From: an uncultured Acidobacteriota bacterium
GTDB taxonomy: Bacteria > Acidobacteriota > Thermoanaerobaculia > Gp7-AA8
Direction: 5' to 3'
Length of the DNA stretch: 45,666 nt
NCBI GenBank assembly: GCA_937870635.1
Contig: CALMZP010000011.1
Location: 1 to 45,666 of the forward strand
The position numbers and the translations under genes were made by a program. The notes beneath the pieces were generated by a model. That model made no database searches, was not told where the DNA came from, and worked only from the letters and a program-made list of their open reading frames with translations. Shown here in pieces: positions 5,668 through 41,388 of this stretch (positions are counted from its first letter, which is position 1; every line of letters begins with the position of its first letter).

Positions 5668-5769
5668 CATTCAACATTCAACATTGAACATTGAACATTC
5701 AACATTCCCGTCCTCCGTCGCAGAGACGGGAATGTTGAATGTTCAATGTTCAATGTTGAATGTTGAATG
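5668..5769. repeat. Heptamer hairpin with a 45-bp perfect stem, unit GAACATT
   Basis: Left arm 5668-5712 and right arm 5725-5769 are exact reverse complements over 45 bp, with a 12-nt loop (ctccgtcgcaga). Each arm is built of 7-bp units aacattc/aacattg; the order of the two unit variants is mirrored exactly between arms. It lies 8 nt after the dacB stop, between convergent genes. Confidence 0.92.
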
Positions 5770-7783: not shown

Positions 7784-7948
7784 GTGCTTAGTACTTGGTA
7801 CTTGGTGCTTAGTGCTAGGCATGTCTGGTGGAGCGCGGGCGACCTCGCCCGCGTCCTGTGGAACGGCGGGCGGGATCGCCCACGGCTCCACCAAGCACCA
7901 AGCACCAGGCACTGCGCGGGCGAGGTCGCCCGCGCTCCACCAGGCACT
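7784..7948. repeat. Composite repeat: GTGCTTR heptamer arms with R3 palindromes
   Basis: Left heptamer array 7784-7818 (units gtgctta, gtacttg), then an R3 inverted repeat (ggtggagcgcgggcgacctc from 7828 to its partner ending ggctccacc at about 7892), then the inverted heptamers (caccaagcaccaagcacc, 7888-7913), then a further R3 half (gcgcgggcgaggtcgcccgc and the rest, 7914-7948). It fills the whole gap after guaB and runs up to the -10 box of the next gene. Confidence 0.85.
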
Positions 7949-9762: not shown

Positions 9763-12406
<2,644 letters not shown>

Positions 12407-21518: not shown

Positions 21519-21612
21519 GGAGTGCGGCAGCTTGCTGCCGCTCGGGCAGGGCGCAGCTTGCTGCGCCCTGTTAGCTGACGAGGGTCGCGGGCGAGGTCGC
21601 CCGCGCTCCACT
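21519..21612. repeat. R5 hairpins plus an R3 half copy
   Basis: Two adjacent palindromes, gcggcagcttgctgccgc (21524-21541) and a longer one with arms cagggcgcagc / gctgcgccctg (21547-21570), are followed by an R3 half (gcgggcgaggtcgcccgc and ctccact, 21588-21612). They lie between the convergent RRM and MFS genes and probably end both transcripts. Confidence 0.75.
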
Positions 21613-24474: not shown

Positions 24475-24672
24475 GTGCTTGGTGCTTGGTGCTTGGTGCT
24501 GAGTGCGGGGTGGGAGAGAGGGGGGGGCGCGAGGATCCGACTGCGTGCCGCCCGGACCCCCAGGTCCCTCGCTCAAGCTCGGATGACAGGTTGGCCAGTC
24601 TCGTAAAACCAGCGCTCAGCACCAAGCACCGTGCAACCGAGCACCGAGCACTAAGCACCAAGCACTAAGCAC
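24475..24672. repeat. Composite repeat: GTGCTTG arms around an R2 half copy
   Basis: Left array 24475-24506 (four gtgcttg/gtgctga units), a degenerate left R2 remnant and R2 right half (cccaggtccctcgctcaagc onward, 24559-24588), then an inverted array 24611-24672 with units caccaag, caccgag, cactaag. It occupies the gap upstream of the ROK gene and downstream of cspA. I see no gene in 24463-24725. Confidence 0.82.
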
Positions 24673-30622: not shown

Positions 30623-30627
30623 GTTTT

Positions 30628-30731
30628 GAAGGATGAAGGATGAAGGATGAAGGATGAAGGATGAAGGATGAAGGATGAAGGATGAAGGGGTTGCAGTGAC
30701 CTTCATCCTTCATCCTTCATCCTTCATCCTT
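30628..30731. repeat. Heptamer hairpin, eight ATGAAGG units and four inverted units
   Basis: ATGAAGG is repeated eight times without error at 30633-30688 (preceded by a partial unit), then 11 nt, then CCTTCAT four times at 30700-30727, followed by T5. It can fold as a stem of about 30 bp and act as a terminator for the lipoprotein gene. Its unit number differs between arms, which suggests recent slippage. Confidence 0.93.
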
Positions 30732-32106: not shown

Positions 32107-32215
32107 GATTGGACCCTGGTCCTGGACCTTGGACCTTGGACCTTAGACCTTGGGCCCTCGGTGACGCCTCGTGCGCAAGGTCCAAGGTCCAGGGTCCAAG
32201 GTCCAAGGTCCAATC
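32107..32215. repeat. Heptamer hairpin, unit GGACCTT (second locus)
   Basis: Left array 32107-32157 (gattggaccctggtcctgga, then three perfect ggacctt units) and inverted array 32176-32215 (ggtccaa units, ending ggtccaatc). The ends gattggacc and ggtccaatc pair exactly. It uses the same heptamer as 9121-9194, 23 kb away. The rest of the 32049-32315 gap holds no gene I can support. Confidence 0.88.
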
Positions 32216-33247: not shown

Positions 33248-36200
33248 ATGAAGCGTGTCGTCGTCCTCGCGGCTCTCCTTCTTCTTTGCACCTCGATTCT
33301 TTCCGCTGCGGACACCTTGCGGGTGATCAGCGCGGGGCCCGTCGGCGAATTGGCCTCGATGGCGGAGGCGAACGAGGTCCGCGTCGTTTTTTCCGAGCCG
33401 ATGGTGGTCGTGGGAAGAGTCCCGCAACCGGTGACGGCTCCGTTCTTCAGGATCGAGCCCGCGGTGAAGGGAACGTTCCGCTGGTCGGGAACGACGACGC
33501 TCATCTTCACGCCCCAGCCGCTGCCATACGCGCGGCAGTTCAACGTGACGGTCGATGCCAGCGCGCGCTCGGCTGCCGGGAACACGCTCGATCGCGACTA
33601 CACGTTCTCGTTCACGACACCGACGATCCGGCTTCTGCGGACACAGTGGTATCGCAAGGGCGGGGAAGCAGGCGCGCCCCTCGTGATCGGCCTGCGGTTC
33701 AACCAGGCCGTCGATGCGCAGGTAGTGGCAAGCCATCTCCAGCTCCGAACGGTGGCACACCCGTTCCACGCGCCGGAGCTGCCGGCGGCGACGCTCGAGC
33801 GGGAGGCTTTCGAAGCGAAGCGGGTTCGCGCGGCCGCGACGGCGGCCGCCGGCGGCGAACGCGTCCTCGCCTTTCTGACCAGCGACTGGGATCGCAAGCG
33901 CATCGAGCCGGGCACTGACCTCGTGGTTCTCGAAACGAAGCCGGGGATCGCTCCGGAGACGTGGCTGCAGGTTTTCCTCGACGAGAAGCTCGCCGCTTCA
34001 GGACGCTCCGTCGCGGCGGGACGCCCGCAGGAGTACACGATCCAGCTCGAGCCGGCGTTCTTCGTCGAGCGTCTCAGCTGCGTCACCCGATGCGATCCCG
34101 AGATGGGGACGCATCTCGAGTTCCGAACCCAGGCCGGCGTTCGCCTGGCGGAGGTTCGCAAGGCCGTGAGCGTCACCGACGTGACCGATACGAAGAAGCC
34201 GGTGAAGCTTGAAGCGGAGGAGCGGACGTCCGAATATGACTATCCATCGAGCGCCTACTCGCTCGATACCCTCGGCTTCGATCTTCAGCCGTCGCGGCGC
34301 TACCTCGTCCGCGTCGACCCCTCGCTCCGCGCGGAGGATGGCCAGATCCTCGGTTACGCGTGGATGGGCACCATCGATGTCTGGCACAAGTCGGCGTTCA
34401 TCAGTTTCGGGGAGGGGCAGGGCGTATGGGAGGCGAGCGGCGGGACCATCCTGCCGTTCCACGCGCGGAACTTCCGCAGCGTCAGGCAGTGGCTCGCGCC
34501 ACTGAGCATCGAGCAGACGATGCCTCTGCTGCTGGAGATGCTGCGCAACGGATTCCGTTCGGTTCCGCCGGACGCACCGTCGAAACCGCGCACGCTTCGC
34601 GTCATCCCCGACAAGATCCAGGCTTTCGGGCTCGACGCGAGCTCCGTTGTCGGCAGCGACGGCAAAGGCCTCTTCTGGGCGGCCATCGAGCCGGACGAGA
34701 CCATCCCGCGCTCGAACCTCTACGACCCGATGACCCGTGCCACGATCGTTCAGGTCACGAACCTCGGCATCAGCGTCAAGGACAGTCCGCTGAACACGCT
34801 GATCCTCGTCACCACGCTCGACGAGGGGAAGCCCGTTGCTGGCGCAAACGTATCGATCCGCACGACGGAGAACGAAGTTTTCTGGCGCGGTGTGACTGGC
34901 ACCGACGGCATCGCGATCGCTCCGAACACGAACCTGCGCGAAGTGAGAACATCCTCGCCGGAGCAGGAGTACGACGAGTCGTGGCGTGCGCTCGGAGAAC
35001 TGCATTTCATCGTCGTCGCCGAGAAGGGCGGCGACGTCGCCTACGTCGGGAGCGACTGGAATGAAGGGATCACCCCGTGGGAGCTCGGCGTCAACTTCGA
35101 CATCAACGAAGCCGATCCGCTGCTCCGCGGGACGGTCTTCAGCGATCGAGGCGTCTACAAGCTCGGTGAAGAAGTGCACGCGAAGGTCGTCATCCGCAGC
35201 GACACTCCTGCTGCCGGGATGCAGCTGCTTCCGGCGGGCACGCGCGTGGAGGTACTCCTCCGCGACAGCCAGAACAAGGATGTGATCCGCGAGACCGTCT
35301 CGTTGAACGAGTGGAGCAGCGCGGAATGGGTGTTTCGCGTTCCGGCCGAGGCGCCGCTCGGCAACTATTCGATGCAGGCGAAAGTCGAGGGGCAGCGCCT
35401 CGCGGTCCACGGCGGGTTCCTGGTCGCCGCGTATCGCCGGCCCGATTTCCGCGTCGATGCGACAGTCGACGCGCCGTCCACGGTCGCCGGCACGAACGTG
35501 AACGGGAAAGTCACCGGCCGTTATCTCTACGGCGGTTCGATGTCGAACCGCGACGTGAGGTGGAAGTGGACGAAGCGGCCCGTGTGGGACGTCCCCGCCC
35601 CCATCCGCGACCGCTGGCCGTCCGAGCGGTTCCTTTTTCTCGGATGGAACGACGAGACCTCGCACGATCCGGTCACGATCAGTTCGAAGGAAGAACAGCT
35701 GGACGCGAAGGGGGAACTGAATCTCGTTCTCCCCACCGCCAAAGCGGACGGATGGCCATTCGAGTATCAGCTGGAAGGCGAAGTCGCGGACGTCACGCGG
35801 CAGCGCATCGCGAACCGCGCGTCGTTTCGCACCGACCCCGCCGAGTTTTACGTTGGAGTGAAGCCGCCGCCGTATTTCACGGAGTCAGCGAATGGCGTCG
35901 ACACGGAGATCGTGGTCGCGGGCCTCGACGGACTGGCCGTCAGCGGAGTCGCCGTCCAGGTGAAGGTCGAGCGCATCCAGTACAACAGTGTCCGCCGCGC
36001 GGTGGGCAACGGCTTTTACGAATGGCAATCGGAGCGCAAAGAGCTGCCGGCCGGCGAATGGACTGTTAATTCCCAGGCGGCGCCCGTGCCGCTGCGCATC
36101 CCCCTCGCCGATGGCGGAGAGTACCGCCTGACCGCACGCGCAACCGATGGCGGCGGGCGAACCACCACGACGCGGACCTGGTTTTACGCGGTCGGGCCCG

Positions 36201-39004
36201 GATACACGGCGTGGGAACGCTACGATCACAACCGCATCGACCTCGTTCCGGAACGCAAGACGTACAAGCCGGGTGAGACGGCGCGGGTCATGATCAAGTC
36301 GCCGTGGGAGCACGCCACGGCGCTGCTCACCACGGAGCGCGAAGGAATCCGCTCGCACGAACGCTTCGAGCTTACTTCGACGCAGCAGACGATCAGCGTT
36401 CCCATCACCGACCGCGACATACCGAATGTCTATGTGTCCGTGCTTCTGGTCAAGGGGCGCACGCTGGACGCGACGACCGAGGATACGAGCGATCCCGGCA
36501 AGCCGTCGTTCCGGCTCGGGTACGTCGAGATCGAGGTCGAAGATGCGTCGAAGCGCCTCAGCGTCGAGGTGAAAGCGAACCGCGACGAATTCCGCCCCGC
36601 CTCGCGGGCGCAGATCGATGTGAACGTCCGAGATGTCAACGGCGGGCCCGTCCAGTCCGAAGTCACCTTGTGGGCCGTCGACTACGGCGTGCTCTCGCTG
36701 ACGGCTTATCGGACACCGGACGTCGTCGAATCGATCTACCTGAAGAAGGCGCTGCAGGTCGTCAACGAAGATTCGCGACAGCGCATCATCAGCCGTCGCG
36801 TGCTGACGCCGAAAGGCGCGGGCCAAGGGGGAGGCGGCGGTGCCGACGCCGGACCAGGAACGCTCCGCAAGGATTTCCGCGTGCTGGCATTCTGGATTGG
36901 CTCCGTGGTCACCGATGCGCGGGGACAGGCGCGCACGAACGTGACCCTTCCCGAGTCGCTCACGACGTATCGCATCATGGCCGTGGCCGGCGATCGAGCA
37001 TCTCGTTTCGGCTGGGATGATGCGGAGATCCGCGTCAACAAGCCGCTCATGCTGACGCCGGCGTTCCCCCGGTTCCTCTCTGTTTCGGACAGCGCGACTG
37101 TCGGTGCCGTCGTGCACAACCAGTCGAAACGCCGCGGCCGCGTCACCGTCACGGTCCGCAGTCTCGATCCGCGCGTCCTGGCGATCACCGGCGAAGAGAA
37201 ACGCACGTTCGACGTCGCTGCCGGAGGCAGCCAGCTCGTTCGATTCGGCGCGACCGGCAATGCCGTCGGCACGGCGCGCCTTCAGATGCGCGTGACCATG
37301 GGTCGCGAGAACGACGCATTCGAGGACGTCGTCCCGGTCCGGATCCTCGTCTCACCGGAGACAGTCGCCGCGTACGGCGAAGCAAATCCGACCACGCGGG
37401 AAACGCTGGAGATCCCGGAACAGGTCGTTCCCGGTTTCGGCGGACTGAAACTCGAACTGGCGTCCACGCGGCTCGTCGGACTGGCGGAGGGAGCGCGGTA
37501 CCTGGTCGAGTATCCCTACGGGTGTGCCGAGCAGCGCTCGTCGACCACACTCGCTCTCATGCTCGTCACCGACCTCGGCGCGGCCTTCAGCCTGCCGGGC
37601 ATCAAGCCCGGAGAATCGCGCGAGACGGCTCAGGCCAGTCTCCGCACCCTGGAGCGATTCCAGTGCGGCGTCGGCGGCTTCGCATTCTGGCCGGGCAACT
37701 GCGCGAGCGTCTCTCCCTATCTGACCAGTTACGTGATTCATGTCTTCCAGCGCGCGCAGAAGCTGAAGTACGACGTGGATGCCGAAATGCTCACGCGCGC
37801 CTACGAATATCTCGATCGCAGCCTCGGTACCGAACGTCCGCCCAATGAAGGTTGGTGGCCGGCGTTCACGTCGTGGCAGGCGTTCGCCGTGAAGGTGCTC
37901 GCCGAAGGCGGCCGCAACGTCGACAGCCACATCAACCGCATCTACGGATACGTCGATCGTATGCCGGTGTTCGGCATCGCGTTCCTCGCCGATGCGATGG
38001 CTGCAGGCCGGGCCGACGCTCGCCTCGAAGACCTTCATCGGCGCATGCGCAACGCGATTCTGCCCGAAGGAGGTTTTGCGCACGTCGAGGAGTTGAGCGA
38101 TCCGTATCTCCTCTGGTTCTGGAACTCGAACGTCCGCTCGACGGCCATCGCCCTCGGTACTTTCGTGCGACGCGGATCGGATGAAGAGCTCTCTAAGCGG
38201 ATGGTCCGCTGGCTGATGCGCGCGCGCAAGGACGGGCGCTGGGGCAACACGCAGGAAAACGCCTGGGCCATGGCATCGCTGCTCGATTACTACCGCCGGT
38301 ACGAAGCCGAAGTGCCGAACTTCGCGTCGACGGTCGCCCTCGGGACGGAGACGCTCGCGCGCGATGAGTTTCGAGGACGCTCGACCGAGTTGAAGTCACG
38401 CGACTTCTCGCTGCAGCAGGTACTTGCGAAAGCACCGGCCGGCCAGTCACTGCCTGTCGTGTTCGAGAGGGAAGGCACGGGCACGCTCTTCTACATGATG
38501 AGACTGCGCTATGCGTCGCTCGAGCGGAACCTGCAACCGATGGACAACGGTTTCCAGATCGAGCGGACTTACGAAACCGTTGGCGATGCGCCGTCACCGT
38601 CAGATTCGTTCGCTGCAGGTCAGCTGATTCGCGTGACGCTGAAGATCCGGAACACGAAGGAGCGGCGCTTCGTGGCCGTGACCGATCCGATCCCGGCCGG
38701 AACCGAGCCGGTCGAGACCGCATTCGCAACTACCGCCACCGATCTGGTCGAGCAGTCGCGAAATGACCGGATGTACGACTGGACGTCGTGGTTCCGCCGC
38801 GGCGGCTGGGACCACGAAGAGCGTCACGACGACCGCGTGAACGCGTTCGCGACACGCCTGGCCGAAGGGGAACACATCTATTCGTATCTGCTGCGGGCGA
38901 CGACGGTGGGCGCGTTCCTCGTCGCCCCGGCGCACGTGGAAGAGATGTACGAGCCGGAGGTCTTCGGCCGCGCCGAGAGCAGGACGGTTCAGGTAACGCC
39001 ATGA
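33248..39004 (+). CDS. Bacterial alpha-2-macroglobulin with thioester
   Basis: A 1918-residue periplasmic protease trap. The signal peptide is MKRVVVLAALLLLCTSILSA. Successive macroglobulin domains follow, including the A2M core block FWIGSVVTDARGQARTNV (about residue 1214) and LPESLTTYRIMAVAGD. The thioester motif YGCAEQ has Cys1426 and Gln1429 and opens the helical TED domain (with WPGNCASVSPYLTSYVIHVF), so the protein can trap proteases covalently. A Gly-rich linker near residue 1195 may be the bait region; this is inference. It is coupled by a 4-nt overlap to pbpC, the usual partner. Its gene start appears leaderless. Confidence 0.95.
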   Translation: MKRVVVLAALLLLCTSILSAADTLRVISAGPVGELASMAEANEVRVVFSEPMVVVGRVPQPVTAPFFRIEPAVKGTFRWSGTTTLIFTPQPLPYARQFNVTVDASARSAAGNTLDRDYTFSFTTPTIRLLRTQWYRKGGEAGAPLVIGLRFNQAVDAQVVASHLQLRTVAHPFHAPELPAATLEREAFEAKRVRAAATAAAGGERVLAFLTSDWDRKRIEPGTDLVVLETKPGIAPETWLQVFLDEKLAASGRSVAAGRPQEYTIQLEPAFFVERLSCVTRCDPEMGTHLEFRTQAGVRLAEVRKAVSVTDVTDTKKPVKLEAEERTSEYDYPSSAYSLDTLGFDLQPSRRYLVRVDPSLRAEDGQILGYAWMGTIDVWHKSAFISFGEGQGVWEASGGTILPFHARNFRSVRQWLAPLSIEQTMPLLLEMLRNGFRSVPPDAPSKPRTLRVIPDKIQAFGLDASSVVGSDGKGLFWAAIEPDETIPRSNLYDPMTRATIVQVTNLGISVKDSPLNTLILVTTLDEGKPVAGANVSIRTTENEVFWRGVTGTDGIAIAPNTNLREVRTSSPEQEYDESWRALGELHFIVVAEKGGDVAYVGSDWNEGITPWELGVNFDINEADPLLRGTVFSDRGVYKLGEEVHAKVVIRSDTPAAGMQLLPAGTRVEVLLRDSQNKDVIRETVSLNEWSSAEWVFRVPAEAPLGNYSMQAKVEGQRLAVHGGFLVAAYRRPDFRVDATVDAPSTVAGTNVNGKVTGRYLYGGSMSNRDVRWKWTKRPVWDVPAPIRDRWPSERFLFLGWNDETSHDPVTISSKEEQLDAKGELNLVLPTAKADGWPFEYQLEGEVADVTRQRIANRASFRTDPAEFYVGVKPPPYFTESANGVDTEIVVAGLDGLAVSGVAVQVKVERIQYNSVRRAVGNGFYEWQSERKELPAGEWTVNSQAAPVPLRIPLADGGEYRLTARATDGGGRTTTTRTWFYAVGPGYTAWERYDHNRIDLVPERKTYKPGETARVMIKSPWEHATALLTTEREGIRSHERFELTSTQQTISVPITDRDIPNVYVSVLLVKGRTLDATTEDTSDPGKPSFRLGYVEIEVEDASKRLSVEVKANRDEFRPASRAQIDVNVRDVNGGPVQSEVTLWAVDYGVLSLTAYRTPDVVESIYLKKALQVVNEDSRQRIISRRVLTPKGAGQGGGGGADAGPGTLRKDFRVLAFWIGSVVTDARGQARTNVTLPESLTTYRIMAVAGDRASRFGWDDAEIRVNKPLMLTPAFPRFLSVSDSATVGAVVHNQSKRRGRVTVTVRSLDPRVLAITGEEKRTFDVAAGGSQLVRFGATGNAVGTARLQMRVTMGRENDAFEDVVPVRILVSPETVAAYGEANPTTRETLEIPEQVVPGFGGLKLELASTRLVGLAEGARYLVEYPYGCAEQRSSTTLALMLVTDLGAAFSLPGIKPGESRETAQASLRTLERFQCGVGGFAFWPGNCASVSPYLTSYVIHVFQRAQKLKYDVDAEMLTRAYEYLDRSLGTERPPNEGWWPAFTSWQAFAVKVLAEGGRNVDSHINRIYGYVDRMPVFGIAFLADAMAAGRADARLEDLHRRMRNAILPEGGFAHVEELSDPYLLWFWNSNVRSTAIALGTFVRRGSDEELSKRMVRWLMRARKDGRWGNTQENAWAMASLLDYYRRYEAEVPNFASTVALGTETLARDEFRGRSTELKSRDFSLQQVLAKAPAGQSLPVVFEREGTGTLFYMMRLRYASLERNLQPMDNGFQIERTYETVGDAPSPSDSFAAGQLIRVTLKIRNTKERRFVAVTDPIPAGTEPVETAFATTATDLVEQSRNDRMYDWTSWFRRGGWDHEERHDDRVNAFATRLAEGEHIYSYLLRATTVGAFLVAPAHVEEMYEPEVFGRAESRTVQVTP

Positions 39005-41253
39005 GGAACCGGTGGAGTGGACAGTGGAGGGCGGGCGACCTCGCCCGCCTGCTCGTGTTCGCGGGCGAGGTCGCCCGCGCTCCACTGTTTCTGGCGCTCG
39101 CCGCCTCCTTCGTCATCGGCCTCTGGATCCGGTTCGGTCCGATCGACCCCGCGCTGCTCGACTCGTCGCGCTTCGCATCCACGACGGTCCTCGATTGCAG
39201 CGGCGTGGTTCTTTACGAGCCGTTGTCTCCCGCAGGAGGACGCGGATCGTCGGTGCAGGCGGACGAGTTGCCGCCGCTCGTCGTCGCGGCGACCATCGCG
39301 GCTGAAGACCGGCGGTTCTTCGTGCATCCGGGTGTGGATCCGCTGGCTATCGCGCGGGCAATGCTGCACAACATCAGGAGTGGGCGCGTCGTCGAAGGCG
39401 GTTCGACGGTCACGCAGCAGGTGGCAAAGCTGCTTCTCAATGGTGGCGAGCGATCGGTCACCAACAAGGTTCGCGAGACGATCCTGGCGGTCCGGCTCGA
39501 GCGGCGGCGGCCGAAGACAGCGATCCTGGCGATGTACCTGAACGCTGCTCCGTACGGAAACCGGATCAATGGGATCGGCCGCGCGAGCCGGGCGTACTTT
39601 GGCGTCCGCCCGCACGACCTCACGCCGGCCCAGGCCGCGTTTCTCGCTGCGCTCCCGCAGCGGCCCAGTGCGTTCAACCCGTTGCGCGATGAGAAAAGGG
39701 CGCGGCCGAGGCAGCGCGCCATCCTGGCCGCGATGCCGTTGAGCGCCGCGGAGCGATCGATTGCGCTGCGCGAACGGCTGGTGTTTCGCGGAGGCACACA
39801 GCCACTTCTGGCCCAGCATTTCGTCGAGCGCGCCCTGCCGCGCTGCGGAACCCGGCTTGTGTGCGTGACGACGATCGACGCCTCGCTGCAGCGCGAGATT
39901 GCCGGCATCATCGAGGCACATCGTCCCTCGCTCAGGAAGCACGGAGCGCGAAATGTCGCGGTTGCCGTTCTCGACAATCGAAGCGGCGAATGGCTGGCGT
40001 GGGAAGGTTCAGGCGACTATTTCGACGCCGAAGCCGGCGGCGCCATCGACGGCGTCGTCACGCCGCGCCAGCCGGGATCGACGCTCAAGCCGTTCACCTA
40101 CGCGCTCGCATTCGAGCAGCGGTACTCACCGGCGACGGTGATCGCCGATGTGCCGTCGCACTTCTCGACCGCCGAGGAGGGCGTCGTCTATGCGCCTCGC
40201 AACTATGACGGGAAGCATCGCGGTCCGCTCCTGGCCCGTGCCGCGCTCGCCGGATCGCAGAACGTTCCCGCGGTCGCGCTCTTGTCGAAGCTCGGTGCGC
40301 CGGCACTCCTGCGTCTCCTGCGCGCCGCCGGCTTCGACGGCCTTACGCGCACGTCCGATTACTACGGCCTCGGACTCACGCTCGGTGATGCCGAGGTGCG
40401 GCTCGATCAGCTCGTTGCGGCGTACGCCGTCTTCGCACGCGGTGGGATGCCCGTGAAGCCGGTGATGATCGCCGGAGAAACGACGCTGACGCCGCCGAGG
40501 CTTTTCTCGCAGCGCACCGCGTTCTGGGTGAGCGACATCCTCTCCGATGCCGGGGCGCGCGAGTACGCGTTCGGGAGGGGAGGGAGTCTCACCTTTCCCT
40601 TTCGTGTGGCTGTGAAGACGGGCACCTCGCAGGCTTATCGCGACAACTGGACTGTCGGCTACACGCGCGACGTCACCGTCGGTGTCTGGGTGGGCAACTT
40701 CGATCGCGCGGAGCTGCGCAACTCGAGCGGTGTCACCGGCGCGGCGCCGATCTTCCACGCCGTCATGCTCGCGGCGACGAAGAACGTGCGGGGGAAACTT
40801 CCGATCGGCGACGACGACTCGATCGTCGCGCCCGAACGCGCCGAGCTACTTCCGATCTGCGGCACGTCGGGGCGGCGCCCATCGCCTTACTGTCCGGCCA
40901 CGACGTACGAGTGGCTTCCCGCGGACGCGCCTGTCGAATTCTGCTCGTGGCATCGCGCGACCGATGTCCAGCTCCCGGCCGAATACGCGCAGTGGGCGCC
41001 GCGCAAGCAGTACGCGGTCGCGAAGGGTGAGTCGTTCCGCGTGACCAATCCCCCCGATGGATCGACGTACCTCATCGACCCGACGCTCCGTTCGGAGTAT
41101 CAGAAACTCGAGTTCGCGGCGACGCGTCCGGCTGCCTGGTACGTGGGAGATACACGCGCGGCCGATCAGTGGTCGCTGAAGCCCGGACGCCACATGATCA
41201 CCGCCGTCGACGACCGCGGCAATCGTGCGTCGGTAAAGATTCATGTGAAATAG
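39001..41253 (+). CDS. pbpC: Penicillin-binding protein 1C
   Basis: A 750-residue bifunctional peptidoglycan synthase. Order: a repeat-derived N-tail (residues 8-29), one membrane helix (LALAASFVIGLWIRFG, about 31-46), the GT51 domain with Glu102 in IAAEDRRFF and GGSTVTQQVAK, then the transpeptidase with SxxK (Ser360-Lys363), SQN (Ser419) and KTG (539-541), and a C-terminal BiPBP_C beta domain (FRVTNPPDGSTYLIDP). The start overlaps the macroglobulin stop. PBP1C is thought to repair the wall where the macroglobulin traps invading proteases. The in-frame repeat is discussed separately. Confidence 0.95.
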   Translation: MRNRWSGQWRAGDLARLLVFAGEVARAPLFLALAASFVIGLWIRFGPIDPALLDSSRFASTTVLDCSGVVLYEPLSPAGGRGSSVQADELPPLVVAATIAAEDRRFFVHPGVDPLAIARAMLHNIRSGRVVEGGSTVTQQVAKLLLNGGERSVTNKVRETILAVRLERRRPKTAILAMYLNAAPYGNRINGIGRASRAYFGVRPHDLTPAQAAFLAALPQRPSAFNPLRDEKRARPRQRAILAAMPLSAAERSIALRERLVFRGGTQPLLAQHFVERALPRCGTRLVCVTTIDASLQREIAGIIEAHRPSLRKHGARNVAVAVLDNRSGEWLAWEGSGDYFDAEAGGAIDGVVTPRQPGSTLKPFTYALAFEQRYSPATVIADVPSHFSTAEEGVVYAPRNYDGKHRGPLLARAALAGSQNVPAVALLSKLGAPALLRLLRAAGFDGLTRTSDYYGLGLTLGDAEVRLDQLVAAYAVFARGGMPVKPVMIAGETTLTPPRLFSQRTAFWVSDILSDAGAREYAFGRGGSLTFPFRVAVKTGTSQAYRDNWTVGYTRDVTVGVWVGNFDRAELRNSSGVTGAAPIFHAVMLAATKNVRGKLPIGDDDSIVAPERAELLPICGTSGRRPSPYCPATTYEWLPADAPVEFCSWHRATDVQLPAEYAQWAPRKQYAVAKGESFRVTNPPDGSTYLIDPTLRSEYQKLEFAATRPAAWYVGDTRAADQWSLKPGRHMITAVDDRGNRASVKIHVK
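39022..39087. repeat. Complete R3 hairpin inside the pbpC coding sequence
   Basis: Arms 39022-39048 and 39061-39087 are reverse complements over 27 bp with one mismatch, loop of 12 nt. The element is 66 nt, exactly 22 codons, and starts on a codon boundary, encoding QWRAGDLARLLVFAGEVARA and PL. It has the same sequence as the R3 repeats found between genes elsewhere in the window. Confidence 0.93.
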
Positions 41254-41277: not shown

Positions 41278-41388
41278 GTGGAGCCGCGGGCGATCCGCCC
41301 GCGGTTTCTTGGTTCCCGGGTTCCCCGCGGGCGGGATCGCCCGCGGCTCCACTGTTTTGGAAAACGGTTAACGGTTAACGGTTAACGG
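41278..41388. repeat. R3-variant hairpin followed by three GGTTAAC heptamers
   Basis: Arms gtggagccgcgggcgatccg from 41278 to 41304 and the complementary 41325-41352 form an R3-like hairpin (gcggctccac end). Three units of ggttaac follow at 41366-41388; this heptamer contains the palindrome GTTAAC, so the array is its own inverted arm. It fills the gap after pbpC. Confidence 0.82.

Follow-up and report, generated by a model that had tools for sequence, protein, structure and literature searches.

The pbpC gene considered here raises the question of how a strong hairpin came to lie inside coding sequence, just behind a start codon, and of what its arrival has meant for the protein. The gene is located in the window, by which we mean the whole stretch of 45,666 nucleotides analysed from the genome of an uncultured acidobacterium. 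The features from which the argument starts are the following:

33248-39004, plus strand: bacterial alpha-2-macroglobulin gene, upstream of pbpC (Pfam bMG10, A2M_BRD, A2M, MG2 and bMG3)
39001-41253, plus strand: pbpC, penicillin-binding protein 1C, 750 aa (TIGR02073 PBP_1c, 534.8 bits, above the cut-off)
39021-39088, no strand assigned: REPIN, an inverted pair of REPs inside pbpC, in frame (arms 96% complementary, and the fold)
39024-39049, plus strand: first REP (GTGGAGGGCGGGCGACCTCGCCCGCC), read as WRAGDLAR, with an exact core at 39033-39048 that is one of 252 genome-wide
39060-39085, minus strand: second REP, inverted (CGCGGGCGAGGTCGCCCGCGCTCCAC), read as AGEVARAP, with an exact core at 39061-39076

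The pbpC frame runs from an ATG at 39001 to a stop codon at 41251-41253 and encodes Transgly, Transpeptidase and BiPBP_C domains. Its ATG overlaps the stop of the macroglobulin gene by 4 nt (ATGA, 39001-39004), and the family orthologues of pbpC, in the Acidobacteriota, stand behind the same macroglobulin gene. Within this frame, two inverted arms of 28 nt each (39021-39048 and 39061-39088) pair at 27 of their 28 bases (96%) around a 12-nt spacer, and the element measures 62 nt from head to head (GTGGAG..CTCCAC, 39024-39085), each arm containing a REP unit that consists of the head GTGGAG and then the palindrome GCGGGCGACCTCGCCCGC. The earlier note had described a 66-nt, 22-codon hairpin at 39022-39087, set on a codon boundary near the N-terminus, and had suggested that it might put a strong hairpin behind the pbpC start; both descriptions are borne out, as the 66 nt beginning at 39022 coincide with codons 8-29 and encode the peptide QWRAGDLARLLVFAGEVARAPL, and the predicted RNA fold reaches -65.8 kcal/mol (z = -11.8, with no shuffle equally good). 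The hairpin begins 20 nt past the ATG, that is, beyond most of the footprint of an initiating ribosome. Two inverted REPs, a short spacer and a hairpin fold are all present in the pbpC copy, so that the element, judged from its sequence and predicted fold, is by structure a REPIN as defined in PMC3116915.

Comparison with orthologues points to insertion. None of the same-family pbpC orthologues has residues that can be aligned to the 22 encoded by the REPIN, and the distance from the start to the W-x-R-x-G-P motif that follows the membrane helix is 41 codons in the window vs 18-31 in orthologues without a large insert; subtracting 22 codons leaves 19, and the commonest tail length among orthologues is 18-19. 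The proposal that the repeat was captured in frame and tolerated is supported by the missing homologous residues and by the longer tail. The further expectation that homologues lack exactly these 22 codons holds only as far as the absence of the residues from every family orthologue, since neither the figure of exactly 22 nor the REPIN boundaries can be fixed with a closest orthologue only 65% identical, a hypervariable tail and no close empty site. No target-site duplication was seen by eye in the flanks of the REPIN, and its absence is the expectation for single-strand (IS200/IS605-like) transposases. AlphaFold2 models built from shallow alignments were poor both for PbpC (mean pLDDT 62.5) and for GltX, one of the other host proteins considered below (mean pLDDT 58.2), and were left out as evidence beyond the low confidence of PbpC residues 1-25.

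The repeat belongs to a large family. Across the 4.52-Mb genome its 16-nt core, GGGCGACCTCGCCCGC, has 252 exact matches, against none for the reversed control, so the match in pbpC is not due to chance; each of 18 relatives from the same family or order has 0 or 1 copies, and the REP family has therefore expanded in the lineage of the window. The copies read GTGGAG-C-GCGGGCGA-CC-TCGCCCGC, which conforms to the definition of REPs as a GT(A/G)G head and, behind it, an imperfect palindrome rich in GC (PMC2817692), and 252 exact cores likewise agree with the high copy number of REPs. A strict doublet pattern, which misses variant partners, counted 14 doublets and 65 singles. Elsewhere in the window the repeat is represented as follows:

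7828-7940, no strand assigned: intergenic cluster of the same REP family as the pbpC copy (exact cores at 7837, plus, and 7916, minus; variant at 7866-7891)
12306-12379, no strand assigned: intergenic REP pair of the same family (exact core at 12355, minus; 12306-12335 at 90%)
21586-21611, minus strand: single REP of the pbpC family between predicted genes (exact core at 21587, minus)
41327-41352, minus strand: variant REP (GCGGGCGGGATCGCCCGCGGCTCCAC) 3' of pbpC (96% to 7866-7891)

Other intergenic inverted arrays of the window, with units of 7-14 nt and long hairpins (5668-5769, 30627-30731, 32123-32212 and 24475-24672), are repeat families separate from the pbpC REP.

A candidate for the enzyme that would move the repeat is also encoded in this genome, which has three Y1 transposase genes. 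The RAYT gene at L031:1339-1881 (minus strand) scores 104.2 bits against NF047646, the NCBIfam model of the REP-associated tyrosine transposase (cut-off 80), and on either side of it stand inverted REPs of the family found in pbpC (cores at 1355, minus; 1940, plus; 2002, minus). A RAYT gene between inverted REPs of its own family is the arrangement that defines RAYT-REP systems (PMC2817692). For the RAYT of E. coli, cutting of single-stranded REPs at the GTGG has been assayed (PMC3733652). The C-terminus of this RAYT (G000:C139) reads SGARATSPAPSRR and is encoded by the downstream flanking REP.

How exceptional, then, is the pbpC copy? The earlier note regarded the element as otherwise intergenic, which is true of the other copies in the window and does not extend to the genome. 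In 40 genome stretches totalling 792 kb, chosen around known copies and with genes predicted by a home-made codon-usage caller, 90 exact cores were found, 54 of them intergenic, 34 inside predicted genes and 2 partial. As 89% of this sample is coding, the 60% of cores that are extragenic represent a strong depletion in genes; genes are thus avoided by the REPs yet far from closed to them. The pbpC copy had also been offered as a proof of principle that such a repeat can enter coding DNA, a role it loses, since the element is not otherwise only intergenic and pbpC is one of many such cases. By structure and RAYT association the element is filed as a REP, with an unusual placement, far more of its copies being intragenic than usual.

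Intragenic cores are distributed along the whole length of genes. Translations of the host genes were read as glutamyl-tRNA synthetase (gltX), dihydroorotate dehydrogenase (pyrD), aconitase, PheT, MutS2, UvrD/PcrA helicase, Rho, DnaX and 2-oxoacid dehydrogenase E2, and these predicted identities have been confirmed by matches to solved structures for GltX, PyrD, UvrD/PcrA and PheT; for an ABC ATPase (L107), the alignments, with EttA as the best hit, were too distant for a judgement. The E2 gene has REPs in two linkers. A DnaX-like gene (L119:17618-19219, G000:C44) has three REP-encoded AGEVARAP segments in one linker. At the REP, GltX is 6-7 residues longer than family orthologues such as L149, L153 and L158, and PyrD has up to nine residues more than its shorter orthologues, with a loop equal in length in the closest one. 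Against solved structures, the REPs of PheT and GltX fall in loops that are of similar length in some homologues, and these two alignments by themselves do not establish an insertion. The REP-bearing loops of GltX, PyrD, aconitase and UvrD vary in length even without REPs, and part of the insertion signal could therefore be replacement. In three genomes of genus g5 (L172, L176 and L178), the aconitase loop that holds the REP in the window's genome contains longer inserts rich in G, S, T and P.

The intragenic copies are read in a strongly biased manner. Among the 34 cores, GARATSPA is the reading of 14 and AGEVARAP that of 13, and the four remaining frames account for 7 together, so that two of six frames hold 27/34 (chi-square p about 3e-6); when the count is restricted to genes of 250 aa or more with a high coding score, they hold 23/27 (p about 2e-6). 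The counts are not fully independent, because some genes hold more than one core. The codon phase of the REP head in the host was considered as a cause of the bias and rejected, native GTGGAG and CTCCAC lying mostly in other phases (in phase 1, the commonest for REPs, 44/301 and 20/195, respectively). The simplest reading is that of selection, with Arg-rich frames (RGRPRP) removed and neutral, linker-like frames surviving. None of the six frames of the REP contains a stop codon, and an insert of it consequently need only keep its length a multiple of three.

Related genomes carry repeats at the same gene. In G008, which belongs to another genus, pbpC has a different REPIN (GTGGAGCGGCGGGCT...AGCCCGCCGCTCCAC) in frame directly after the GTGA start; its 15-nt head occurs 64 times in G008, is absent from the window's genome and turns up no more than once in the six other genomes searched, and the fold of the region is predicted at -63.8 kcal/mol. 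By these sequence comparisons, the N-terminal site of pbpC has been hit independently by different REPIN families in two genera, a situation that can be likened to the different REPs found at one recB site in two Xanthomonas species (PMC3733652). The only Y1/RAYT gene of G008 (L221, G008:C4) is followed by tandem REPINs with the head GTGGAGCGGCGCCCGC, which resemble the REPIN in pbpC without being identical to it, and its C-terminus also runs into a REP. Further along the pbpC of G008 (L046), nt 2055-2124 form another in-frame palindrome (GTGGGGCAGGTTTTCCAACCTGCC...), of another repeat type, and the pbpC of G017 (L047) has a 101-nt in-frame palindrome at nt 1400-1501 (arms GAGCACAGACAAGAGTGTCTGTGCCACA and TGTGGCACAGACACTCTTGTCTGTGCTC) in a loop of the transpeptidase region. 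At the pbpC start of L075, the region encoding the membrane helix looks as if it were built from a heptamer-type repeat (TTCTGCCTTTTGCCTTTG), inverted relative to the copies just upstream, between the genes. N-terminal REP-like sequences in the pbpC genes of G004 (GTGGAGCGCCGGCGG) and G010 (GCGGGCGATTCGCCCGC) were rejected as insertions, occurring 2 times and 1 time in their genomes, respectively. Other repeats lie between the macroglobulin and pbpC genes, at their junction, in L037, L040 and L045. Taken with G008 and G017, these cases indicate a permissive junction and, within PbpC, permissive variable parts; no special target at pbpC is claimed, because several kinds of repeat are common at the gene junctions of these genomes.

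The same junction invites a different explanation, namely that the REPIN is kept for an RNA hairpin that tunes the coupled macroglobulin-pbpC pair, either by 3' protection of the upstream message or by damping the translation of pbpC, the added residues being incidental. A hairpin as stable as -65.8 kcal/mol straight after the macroglobulin stop would suit such a role, and so would the REPIN at the same site in G008, with the -63.8 kcal/mol of its region, and the junction repeats of L037, L040 and L045. However, most family orthologues have no hairpin at the junction, REPs of the same family also occur in the middle of unrelated genes, where such a role makes little sense, and a shared site is to be expected where repeats are as common at gene junctions as they are in this genome. 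A regulatory effect of the pbpC hairpin is possible, and as the reason for its retention we regard tuning as a minority view, if a serious one.

It might also be argued that the annotated start of pbpC is wrong and that the first REP is an untranslated leader. One feature matters here:

39055-39057, plus strand: a GTG in the hairpin loop, the sole further in-frame ATG/GTG/TTG ahead of the point where the membrane helix ends (from the list of start codons)

The next in-frame start after this GTG is at 39205, past the membrane anchor, and only ATG 39001 (or a start far upstream) and GTG 39055 would keep the anchor. PMC3733652 cautions that, through mis-called starts, many of the REPs assigned to N termini may in fact lie outside genes. 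Here, however, the overlap of the pbpC start with the macroglobulin stop is a conserved feature: in 11/14 family orthologues examined the frame is open from an NTG overlapping that stop (ATG, GTG or TTG in 10, CTG in 1), which places the REPIN within coding DNA rather than in a leader wrongly called as part of the gene. GTG 39055 moreover has no purine-rich ribosome site upstream and sits in the loop of a strong stem, and translation from it is improbable; even then half of the element would be coding, since these two are the only fitting codons and any anchored PbpC begun at one of the usual start codons must include half of the REPIN or more. An assembly artefact, in the form of a repeat-induced misjoin, might be suspected for a multicopy repeat in a metagenome-assembled genome with relatives of the same kind, yet both flanks are parts of the same two genes in conserved order, pbpC is in frame on both sides and many intragenic copies show the same pattern, which makes it very unlikely. 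Finally, that the 22 residues are ancestral protein sequence resembling the repeat by chance can be dismissed: the tail does vary in length among the orthologues (18-31 codons), but an inverted pair with two exact 16-nt cores identical to a 252-copy family, and residues that no orthologue shares, already contradict this reading.

We therefore return to insertion of a REPIN, and hold it highly probable that the pbpC segment is such an element, most likely moved by the RAYT in trans, inserted in frame in the tail and one of many intragenic copies. The identity of the repeat, its copy number, its RAYT association, its in-frame position, its lack in relatives, the intragenic copies and the frame bias were computed. 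The REPIN would be a non-autonomous mobile element, composed of two inverted copies of a repeat tagged GT(A/G)G, and a RAYT encoded elsewhere in the genome most likely moves single-stranded REPs or REPINs in trans. One copy would have inserted about 20 nt after the start codon of pbpC, and the gene stayed open because the repeat, free of stops in all six frames, lengthened it by a multiple of three. About 22 residues would thereby have been added to PbpC ahead of its membrane anchor, in a cytoplasmic tail that is poorly conserved, and the REPIN may have been kept as nearly neutral in a stretch of tail that is dispensable. Insertion was probably not directed at coding DNA; selection would keep those that leave the gene in frame, fall within variable loops or tails and are translated in one of the benign frames (GARATSPA or AGEVARAP).

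REPIN and REP-RAYT systems of Pseudomonas, Stenotrophomonas and E. coli (PMC3116915, PMC2817692) have in common with the present one the GT(A/G)G head and GC-rich palindrome, the hairpin of inverted doublets, more than 100 copies and a single RAYT flanked by inverted REPs. The described REPs are predominantly extragenic, whereas here 34/90 sampled exact cores are inside genes. Closer in this respect are the intragenic GTAG/CGTC REPs (Di Nocera and colleagues 2013, PMC3733652): there, REPs lie wholly inside ORFs, often as dimers coding for 20-30 residues, and their hosts include DNA repair, tRNA synthetase and helicase genes; in the passages available, the species are others, with most cases in O. 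terrae and R. conorii, and no frame bias like the one seen here is reported. Rickettsia palindromic elements (PMC3767692, PMC2229807) resemble our case in their in-frame insertion into conserved genes, at solvent-exposed positions, tolerated and with possible hotspots, and guanylate kinase is still active with its insert; pheT carries such an element in Rickettsia and a REP in the window's genome. The REP family of the window works like these elements, inserting in frame without destroying the ORF, but they are about 100-150 bp long, Rickettsia-specific and, according to PMC3733652, CGTC-tagged at their ends, whereas the units here are of about 26 nt, or pairs of 62 nt; a 62-nt pair with a GTGG head in an acidobacterial lineage is therefore not one of them. 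ERIC and other MITEs fused in frame to genes (PMC2229807) are likewise small mobile repeats read as protein, with a different size and no REP head. The phenomenon is thus of an already known kind, that of intragenic REPs and Rickettsia palindromic elements, and this case of it is new and unusually gene-rich, adding the lineage, the large intragenic share, the frame bias and, in another genus, a different REPIN at the corresponding position of pbpC.

The very name of REPs refers to an extragenic location, and here more than one third of the sampled exact copies are inside genes. A genome with many intragenic REPs represents a natural experiment that can show which inserted peptides are tolerated by proteins and how repeats give rise to protein loops, and with 252 exact cores and related genomes that lack them, comparative testing is feasible. 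We lean, by a small degree only, toward a wider reading, in which the REP/RAYT systems of this acidobacterial family act as coding-compatible mobile DNA and keep supplying housekeeping proteins with new loops, the same proteins and even the same site being reached by independent repeat families. If true, stop-free repeats, kept in genes mainly in two benign frames, would reach the same site, the N terminus of PbpC, across genera.
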